Of a stretch of DNA of 33,955 bases, positions 17,262 to 20,024 are shown in pieces. The position numbers and the translations under genes were made by a program. The stretch covers positions 1-33,955 of the forward strand of contig JAAYVH010000165.1 in assembly GCA_012517255.1 (NCBI GenBank), written 5' to 3'. This DNA comes from Chthonomonadales bacterium (GTDB taxonomy: Bacteria; Armatimonadota; Chthonomonadetes; Chthonomonadales; CAJBBX01). Below the pieces are notes generated by a model. It ran no database searches and was not told where the DNA came from. It saw only the letters and a list, made by a program, of their open reading frames with translations. Position 1 is the first letter of the stretch; each line of letters opens with the position of its first letter.

Positions 17262-17291
17262 TTGACAGTGCTTCTCGCGCGTTGATATACT
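17262..17291 (+). promoter_or_regulatory. Near-consensus sigma-70 promoter for the L7/L12-like zinc-ribbon gene
   Basis: TTGACA at 17262-17267 is a perfect -35 box and TATACT at 17286-17291 a near-perfect -10 box, with an 18-nt spacer. Transcription should begin near 17298, giving a leader of about 90 nt before the ATG at 17389. Confidence 0.8.
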
Positions 17292-17388: not shown

Positions 17389-18135
17389 ATGGCACAAGGT
17401 TCCACGACACGTTCCGATGTGTTGGAGCGCGAATACGAAGCCGGCATGACTCAGGCGATCGTGGGCGTGGTCATCCTGGTGGTTGCCCTGATTCTCGCGT
17501 GGCTGATGAGCAGAGTCCACCTCATGCCCCTCGTGGCTTTCGCCGCTCTGGGCGCCGCGGCCGGCGTCGTCGTGATCGTGGCGGGAGCCCGACGCATGCA
17601 TCGCGCCCGCGCGCTGCCGGCGGTCACCGTATACTGCCCCTACTGCGAGCACACGAACCAGTTCCTGAGGGAGCCCACCGAGGACTACACCTGCGAGGGG
17701 TGCAATCGGCGGGTTCACTACGAGAACGGCAAGCCTGTGCCCGTGCGTGAGATCACGTGCCCCACCTGCAAGACCGTTCACAAGGTGTCTGAGAAGACAA
17801 CTCAGTACACGTGCGACCGGTGCAACCGCGCGCTGCGCCTGGTGGATCCTCGCGATCCGAAGAAGGTCGTCGCCGAACAGACCGACATCCTGCGCAACTA
17901 CGACGTCATCCTCACGCAGGCCGGCAGGCAGCCGAACGATGTGGCCATGGCGCTCCAATCCATCCTTGTCTGCAACCTGAAAGAGGCGCGCGCCCGCATG
18001 GAGAATCTGCCGCTGACGGTCATGCGCGACGTGCCCGAACGCAAGGCGGATGCCGTGCGCACACGGTTGCGCGAGCTTGGAGCGACCGCCGTCATCAGAC
18101 CGACCGAGGACACCGCGCTTCCGCCACGACCGTAG
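17389..18135 (+). CDS. Membrane-anchored zinc-ribbon protein with ribosomal L7/L12-like C-terminal domain
   Basis: This 248-residue protein of unknown function has two membrane helices at about 22-40 and 46-66. They are followed by four CxxC pairs: C83/C86, C102/C105, C124/C127 and C142/C145. These fit two tandem zinc ribbons (CPYC...CEGC and CPTC...CDRC). The C-terminal region, about 170-240, resembles the L7/L12 C-terminal domain: YDVILTQAGRQPNDVAMALQ, then LKEARARMENLPLTVMRDV, then LRELGATAVI, matching in order the family's beta-alpha-alpha-beta pattern with the LKEAK and GA-V-hydrophobic landmarks. In the ribosome that domain recruits GTPase factors; here the role is unknown. The ATG at 17389 has GGGAGG 5 nt upstream and is preferred to ATG 17323. 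The gene converges on another zinc-ribbon gene 38 bp away. Confidence 0.72.
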   Translation: MAQGSTTRSDVLEREYEAGMTQAIVGVVILVVALILAWLMSRVHLMPLVAFAALGAAAGVVVIVAGARRMHRARALPAVTVYCPYCEHTNQFLREPTEDYTCEGCNRRVHYENGKPVPVREITCPTCKTVHKVSEKTTQYTCDRCNRALRLVDPRDPKKVVAEQTDILRNYDVILTQAGRQPNDVAMALQSILVCNLKEARARMENLPLTVMRDVPERKADAVRTRLRELGATAVIRPTEDTALPPRP

Positions 18136-18173: not shown

Positions 18174-20024
18174 TTACTCGTCGGGCTTGTGGAACATCGC
18201 TGCGCCGTACCAGCCGATCATGGTGGCAAAGGGCAGCCACTGCAGGGCGAGATGCGCACCCCAATCGCCGTTGGGCGGAGGCGTCACGGGCATGAGCGAC
18301 TGCAGCGCCTCCGCGAACCCGGTGCCGGCAGCGAACTGCAACGGGAATCTGAGGATAAGGTAGGAGACGAAGATCCCCACCACCGCCGGGTTAGCGTCCT
18401 GGCGCATGACCGCCAGTACTCCGTAGGCCATGCCGCCAACGATGGGGCCGAGCACAAGGATCAGCGCGATCGCCCAGGGCACATCGCTCGAGTCATCCTC
18501 GCCGAACGGAACGACGCGCAAGACCGGCATGGCCATGCCGGCAGCAACGTTGGAGACGGCAAGGAAGAGCAAATACCAGTCAGGCAGCGCACGGGTCAGC
18601 CCGACGCCCACCACCACCATCGCGAGCAAGCCCGCCAGATAGATCGCGGTCTGACGCAGCTGTTCGGCACGCTCGTCGAGCGCCAGATCCTCTTTGAGCT
18701 CGACGGGCGTATCGGTCGTGAGGCCCGTGTCGGCATCATAGTGGGTACCAGAGACCGGGTCGACGACCTGATCGGAGTAGTACTTTGACTTCTGAGCGCG
18801 GACAGCGCTCAGCGACGGCACGCCGTCATTCTTCGGTACGCGAGCCGGTCGCGCTGGCGCACGAACCGCGGGCGCGGCAACCGTGGCTGCGGCGGAGGCT
18901 CCCGACACGGCCGTCGGCACCGCCGCGGCAGGCTTCGGCGCGCTGGGAGCCGGCGCAGGGCGCGCGGCGGGGGCGGGAGCGGGGGCGGCGGCCGGCGTCG
19001 GGCGTGTCACAGGGCGCGCAGGCGGACGCTTGTTGCCCGCCAGCACAGGGCCCTTTCCAGAGCCGGAAGCGGGGAGACTCCGAAGATCGCGGTGACACCA
19101 GCTGCAACGCTCAGGCGTCTCGCTCTCCATGCCGCACCATCGGCAATACCATGTCCTGCCCACCGACTTCGGCGGGCCCGGAGGCTGCTGGGCAGGCGCC
19201 CGAACGAAGGCCGGCAACGGGCGAGCAGGAGGCTGCCGCACGACTGGCGGCGCTTGCGCCGGCGCACCGGTAAGATCCAACCTGTTGCCAGCAGGCACGA
19301 CTATGTCATCTGGCTCCTCAGTAAGCTCGGGAAGGTCGAGCGCCGGCACGTCGGACGGCCCGGTGTCAGGCCTCACGGGTCCCGGTTCGGAGATCGGCGG
19401 CGGCTCCCTGTGGAGCGCGATCGGCTCCGGACGCGCCGCGGGGGCGGCAGGCTCGGGGCTCCGCGTAGGAGTGGCCTCGGCAGGCCGTGCGGGCGCGCCT
19501 GCCTGGGCGCCAGACCCGGGCTCGACCAGTGGGCGGGTCGGCGCCGACACCGGTATCACCTCGGGCGGTGTCTGAGGAGCCGGCTTTCGGATCGGGATCG
19601 CATCAGGCGTGGGCGCAGGCTTCTTGACCGGAATGGGGGTAGCTGCGGGCCGCGCCTCAGGCACAGTCGGCGCCGGCCTCGACGGTGTGGGCTCAGGGGA
19701 CACGCGAGGCGCAGGCGTCGGCGCAGAAGACAGCTCGGCGCTTGTCTCCGCAGCCTGCGTTCGGGTCTGAGGCTGCGGCTGAGACATCACGACGGGGCCC
19801 GCGAACGGCATCTCGACCAGATCGTCGTCGAGCAGCGCAGACGCCACGGGCCTCGCAGACCCTGCAGGCTTCTCGATAGAAGGAGCTTCAGCGGGCTCCG
19901 GCGCTGCCGCCGGCTTGGCCTCCGCTTCGGGTCGGCTTACGGTTGCGGCGGTTTTGAACGGCCTCTTGCACCAACTGCATACGTCAGTGGTGTCGCTCTC
20001 GAGGCCGCACCATTTACAGAACAT
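18174..20024 (-). CDS. Proline/alanine-rich protein with duplicated zinc ribbons and a C-terminal membrane domain
   Basis: I do not recognise this 616-residue protein as a named family. It begins with a short zinc ribbon, cysteines 3, 6, 16 and 19 (FCKWCGLESDTTDVCSWC). The same element recurs with the same spacing at 294, 297, 307 and 310 (YCRWCGMESETPERCSWC), so one copy arose by duplication. Between them, and again from about 330 to 400, lie long Pro/Ala-rich stretches, probably disordered. A conserved-looking segment (VVDPVSGTHYDADTG) precedes about five membrane helices over the last 160 residues. A strong promoter lies about 210 nt upstream. Its low-complexity linker makes homology searches unreliable; the two ends should be searched separately. 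Confidence 0.72.
   Translation of the reverse strand: MFCKWCGLESDTTDVCSWCKRPFKTAATVSRPEAEAKPAAAPEPAEAPSIEKPAGSARPVASALLDDDLVEMPFAGPVVMSQPQPQTRTQAAETSAELSSAPTPAPRVSPEPTPSRPAPTVPEARPAATPIPVKKPAPTPDAIPIRKPAPQTPPEVIPVSAPTRPLVEPGSGAQAGAPARPAEATPTRSPEPAAPAARPEPIALHREPPPISEPGPVRPDTGPSDVPALDLPELTEEPDDIVVPAGNRLDLTGAPAQAPPVVRQPPARPLPAFVRAPAQQPPGPPKSVGRTWYCRWCGMESETPERCSWCHRDLRSLPASGSGKGPVLAGNKRPPARPVTRPTPAAAPAPAPAARPAPAPSAPKPAAAVPTAVSGASAAATVAAPAVRAPARPARVPKNDGVPSLSAVRAQKSKYYSDQVVDPVSGTHYDADTGLTTDTPVELKEDLALDERAEQLRQTAIYLAGLLAMVVVGVGLTRALPDWYLLFLAVSNVAAGMAMPVLRVVPFGEDDSSDVPWAIALILVLGPIVGGMAYGVLAVMRQDANPAVVGIFVSYLILRFPLQFAAGTGFAEALQSLMPVTPPPNGDWGAHLALQWLPFATMIGWYGAAMFHKPDE

Follow-up and report, generated by a model that had tools for sequence, protein, structure and literature searches.

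A conserved Armatimonadota membrane protein joining tandem zinc ribbons to a ribosomal L7/L12-type C-terminal domain

The window, which here means the whole stretch of DNA analysed (33,955 nucleotides), encodes a protein of 248 residues in which two predicted transmembrane helices are followed by two tandem zinc ribbons and a C-terminal domain of the ribosomal L7/L12 type. Its family is new and has no name, although the domains that compose it are known, and it is present in a large share of Armatimonadota genomes. Our favoured reading, at a probability of about 0.5, is that of a cytoplasmic adaptor anchored in the membrane, with a putative cytoplasmic partner. The features of the locus are as follows.

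17262..17291, + strand: sigma-70-type promoter, TTGACA-18-TATACT, the second hexamer being preceded by TG (11 of 12 positions)
17389..18135, + strand: coding sequence, 248 residues, membrane zinc-ribbon protein with L12-type C-terminal domain (open reading frame and domain matches)
17389..17448, + strand: N-terminal tail, residues 1-20, with an invariant E13 (alignment of relatives)
17449..17604, + strand: two predicted transmembrane helices with a short loop between them, residues about 21-72 (hydrophobicity and a low-confidence model)
17635..17706, + strand: predicted zinc ribbon 1, residues 83-106 (C83, C86, C102, C105), followed by an invariant R107 (invariant cysteines)
17758..17826, + strand: predicted zinc ribbon 2, residues 124-146 (C124, C127, C142, C145; invariant cysteines)
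17899..18096, + strand: predicted L7/L12 C-terminal-type domain, residues 171-236 (Pfam, profile-profile comparison and core positions)

The open reading frame extends from an ATG at 17389 to a stop codon ending at 18135, and its start methionine is common to close relatives, which begin with MAQ or MAK. Open reading frames antisense to the gene were set aside as spurious. A preliminary description of this DNA had assigned the gene a near-consensus promoter, and the assignment holds up: shuffled sequence yields on average 0.2 promoter-like sites per 1.8 kb, and the arrangement TTGAC(A/T)-17/18-TATACT recurs 92-147 bp 5' of the start codon, both in the window gene and in all ten relatives compared, which come from its own family and a sister family. 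The gene therefore has its own conserved strong promoter. It is also under purifying selection, with the L12-type domain as the most constrained part of the protein. Compared with the closest named relative, a Chthonomonas calidirosea metagenome bin (L003, 81% identity), dN/dS is 0.11 for the whole gene; by region it is highest in the helices (0.20), lower in the ribbons (0.10) and lowest in the C-terminal domain (0.065), the L12-type region being 91% identical.

The identity of the C-terminal domain was supported by several independent matches. Pfam Ribosomal_L12 (PF00542) aligned to residues 171-236 over model positions 1-66 of 67, with an E-value of 8.6e-8 for the whole protein and of 1.1e-8 (35.7 bits, against a curated cut-off of 25.9 bits) for the C-terminal part alone. 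The top sequence matches in the PDB were L7/L12 structures, the best being the E. coli L7/L12 C-terminal domain (CTD; 1ctf, E 6.5e-4), and Ribosomal_L12 was the most frequent Pfam family among relatives scanned singly (22 of 36). The preliminary description had proposed a profile search of the C-terminal part, and in such comparisons the domains of five subclades matched the bL12 CTD with probabilities of 97, 97, 96, 94 and 49%, while 15 column-shuffled controls reached at most 0.4%. Beyond this full-length match, the family domain shares with the bL12 CTD (PF00542, 1ctf) its core positions and a conserved Pro91, Ala103 and Gly114-Ala115 (E. coli numbering); at 16 core positions the canonical kind of residue is kept in 41-50 of 50 members. 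Taken as sequence evidence, the resemblance is beyond chance, the C-terminal domain and the CTD of the ribosomal stalk appear to descend from one family, and an L12 fold is predicted for the former.

The opposite reading, that the C-terminal part is not L12 and that the likeness is a convergent feature of helix-rich sequence, could draw on the structural models: AlphaFold with a two-row alignment (the window protein and one relative), and thus without a deep alignment, gave low confidence (mean pLDDT 61-67), and Foldseek with the low-confidence C-terminal model returned no meaningful match. We nevertheless regard convergence as hardly credible, given a Pfam match above the curated cut-off over the full model, independent matches in many relatives, profile matches accompanied by null shuffles, and agreeing core positions. 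The domain assignment of the preliminary description thus stands, with one restriction on the motif by which it was recognised: the LKEA motif is limited to part of the window's own group, and most family members differ there.

The N-terminal part agrees with what had been described for it, two membrane helices and two tandem ribbons made of four CxxC pairs (83/86, 102/105, 124/127 and 142/145). Hydrophobic helices lie at residues about 22-40 and 46-70, and the low-confidence model places them at 8-40 and 46-74. Lys and Arg residues are more numerous after helix 2 than in the loop in 43 of 50 relatives, and positive charge is found at the two outer ends of the helix pair. By the positive-inside rule, this suggests that both ends are cytoplasmic. 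All eight cysteines are invariant in 50 of 50 distinct relatives at identities down to about 25%, and E13, R107 and P208 are likewise invariant in 50 distinct sequences. Zinc-ribbon Pfam families gave several weak matches, none above cut-off; zinc binding by the ribbons is predicted.

The family differs from ribosomal bL12 in several respects. A canonical bL12 is encoded elsewhere in the window genome (G000:C141, 107 bits). Matches to TIGR00855 (L12) score 26.8-30.3 bits, below its cut-off of 84.4. No L12 N-terminal dimerisation/uL10-binding domain was found among the Pfam matches of the protein, which has membrane helices and zinc ribbons in its place. A tree built from 50 family and 27 canonical domains splits the two sets at a single branch with support 100/100, so that the L12-type domains form one group apart from ribosomal bL12. 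Rooting aside, the tree fits a single capture of the domain, and it supports the view that the domain would have parted from the stalk CTD before the family diversified.

The main difference lies in the face through which bL12 binds translation factors. The EF-Tu/EF-G-binding residues K65, V66, K70 and R73 (E. coli numbering) are present in 0, 1, 2 and 2 of 50 members, respectively, and I69 in 16 of 50; all five are present in 26/26 canonical bL12 proteins of the same phylum. G79, also found in 26/26 of these, is absent from every family member (0/50). In the largest subclade (f14), a nearly invariant LALNRNQVK lies on the same helix pair. New conserved residues thus occupy, in the family, the two helices through which bL12 contacts translation factors. 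The rewritten face therefore probably still binds, but something else.

These results bear on the proposal that the protein recruits translation GTPases, or ribosomes together with their factors, to the membrane as the ribosomal stalk does. The homology to the bL12 CTD is real, position 84 is still K or R in 49 of 50 members, the family gene of f43 is clustered with those for Obg, a GTPase that binds the ribosome, and for the silencing factor RsfS, and the family gene of f2 is convergent with bL28. However, an Obg-RsfS neighbourhood is a common bacterial gene order, and it accompanies the family gene in one family only. K65, V66, K70, R73 and G79 are lost in nearly all family members; according to a previous study, K65Q/R or K70Q/R singly weakens EF-Tu binding in E. 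coli-type L7/L12 (PMC10602876). With the factor-binding residues lost and the hydrophobic core kept, recruitment of translation GTPases in the ribosomal manner is unlikely, and the evidence argues against the GTPase adaptor of the preliminary description in this sense.

A protease adaptor in the sense of ClpS had also been suggested. The fold of ClpS is regarded as related to that of the L12 CTD, and the profile of the pooled family matched ClpS with a probability of 66% over 49 columns, a weak similarity over the first half. Single subclades reached only 0.06-19%, Pfam ClpS (PF02617) gave no match to the window protein at E up to 1, no ClpS context was found for the family, and a separate ClpS is encoded in the same genome (G000:C139). 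The match to L12 is far stronger. The similarity to ClpS is a weak lead, and a role as a ClpS-like adaptor, tethered to the membrane and handing substrates to a Clp protease, is very improbable. What endures of the original proposal is the membrane-tethered adaptor in its general sense, which is the best reading of the protein, while its ribosomal GTPase and ClpS versions are poorly supported.

As such an adaptor, the protein would use its two-helix hairpin to keep both the ribbons and the interaction domain of L7/L12 type against the cytoplasmic face of the inner membrane, a topology deduced from charge. The L12-type domain would most likely bind another cytoplasmic protein through its rewritten face. 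The invariant zinc ribbons would probably serve as a structural hinge, possibly one sensitive to redox state or metal. From these elements we infer an adaptor role, a new partner and redox sensitivity. The last of these is touched by the gene neighbourhood: a glutaredoxin gene (PF00462, mostly WCxDC) lies directly downstream, on the same strand and within about 110 bp, at 14 loci from f1, f2 and f45. In 4/4 tested genomes that have it, the neighbouring glutaredoxin is the sole genomic match of that protein and thus looks like a dedicated partner. Its position in these three families suggests that the cysteines of the ribbons, or of the partner, may be kept reduced by it. According to a genome match check, however, neither the window's own genome and genus nor several other families have this gene, so that glutaredoxin cannot be essential to function, which counts against the adaptor reading.

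The same observations lend some colour to a different reading, in which the protein is a membrane redox or zinc sensor and zinc loss or ribbon oxidation frees or captures a regulator on the L12-type domain, for example a sigma or anti-sigma system in f14. Eight invariant cysteines and the dedicated glutaredoxin of f1, f2 and f45 are consistent with it, as are the regulators found upstream of the family gene in two lineages: an ECF sigma factor with a probable partner gene in f14 (15 loci), and DUF2089, a zinc-ribbon HTH protein, in f6. These regulators vary by lineage, however, and none adjoins the window gene; a promoter this strong and conserved is consistent with constant expression, and the eight cysteines may be purely structural. 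We consider a sensor possible, though on the unlikely side. More doubtful still is the idea of a stalk-type domain that was captured long ago and would now be a redox-controlled dock tying a cytoplasmic machine, possibly a ribosome assembly or silencing factor, to the inner membrane in a large part of one phylum.

The variation of neighbours also counts against the adaptor reading itself: besides the ECF sigma factor of f14 and the DUF2089 gene of f6, a membrane H+-pyrophosphatase is often the next gene in f14 as well as in f43, and a DUF4097 gene neighbours the family gene in f6. No neighbour common to all lineages was found among the loci compared. A frequent pseudopilin neighbour was set aside as a candidate, as the N-terminus shared by these proteins is a common one and neither position nor strand is constant.

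In the window, the gene stands alone, and its 3' neighbour (18174-20024, - strand) is convergent. This neighbour encodes an uncharacterised proline-rich protein of 616 residues with two CxxC-type ribbons and C-terminal membrane helices, for which a Pfam scan gave no match. A convergent neighbour of this type recurs at 10 loci of f1 and f3, window included. At the f14 loci (L041:7398-8111, L042:7008-7997 and others), the ECF sigma factor gene is followed by the companion gene, whose product is probably a single-helix protein ending in a secretin/STN-like region and gave no Pfam match either. In f43 (L136-L139), the gene order is obgE, nadD, rsfS, a TPR protein gene and then the family gene, which thus lies within a ribosome-associated cluster. 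The H+-pyrophosphatases of f14 and f43 (L147:6802-10497, L136:7051-10446, G123:C1:4903087-4904099) are about 1,060-1,230 residues long, with some 340 additional residues inserted where positions 297 and 298 of the Pfam model would adjoin; their genes start 19-135 bp after the family gene.

A family profile was searched against 237 Armatimonadota genomes of at least 85% completeness at a threshold of E 1e-12. It matched 133 of the 237, about four of which represent bL12 or a short paralogue, so that about 130 genomes carry the family, nearly always as a single copy. Full-length members occur in nine GTDB-type families (f1, f2, f3, f6, f14, f40, f43, f44 and f45). The preliminary description had proposed to collect homologues and see whether the fusion and its neighbours are conserved: the fusion is conserved across these families, and its neighbours differ between lineages. 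One genus (G148, G230, G231) has lost the L12-type domain and kept the helices and both ribbons; in G148 (L133:5892-6350) the operon context is kept as well. The domain is therefore not always needed, a further point against the adaptor reading. No full-length member was found in plasmid and phage collections, which returned bL12-type proteins or nothing.

The combination had been described as one without a known family name, and we also found no Pfam or NCBIfam entry that names it. A literature search by domain names found no description of the architecture, the sole other fusion mentioned being a cyanobacterial orthocaspase with a Ribosomal_L12 domain. The family also represents an unnamed core gene of a phylum that has been little studied. 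Textbooks present the L7/L12 CTD as a ribosomal module; in many Armatimonadota families it is a stable component, in single copy, of a membrane protein, which offers a direct route to asking what else the fold binds.

An L12 CTD outside the ribosome is in itself already known from other proteins (L124, L125 and L135); the novelty lies in the union of the complete domain with tandem ribbons, in the loss of the factor-binding face and in how widely the family is spread. Short Armatimonadota proteins (L126-L132) share with the family a two-helix hairpin followed by a ribbon that can be aligned with ribbon 1, but they have one ribbon and no L12-type domain. Other small Armatimonadota membrane proteins (for example L124:1119-1538 and L125:1354-1971, the latter on the - strand) contain just one half of the L12 CTD, alpha4-alpha5 (KIEAIKLYRERSGVGLKEAR and similar). 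Like the family, they join an L12-derived segment to membrane helices; unlike it, they are without zinc ribbons, and their half motif, KIxAIKxYRexxGvGLKEAr plus a helix, is of the canonical GLKEA/GLKDA type. Finally, a stand-alone L12 CTD protein of 84 residues, absent from the gene table of the collection, is encoded on the Streptomyces nigrescens plasmid SNP1 (L135:1465-1719). It resembles the family in having an L12 CTD outside the ribosome and differs in being without a membrane or zinc part and in having kept Lys and Arg at the positions comparable to K70 and R73.
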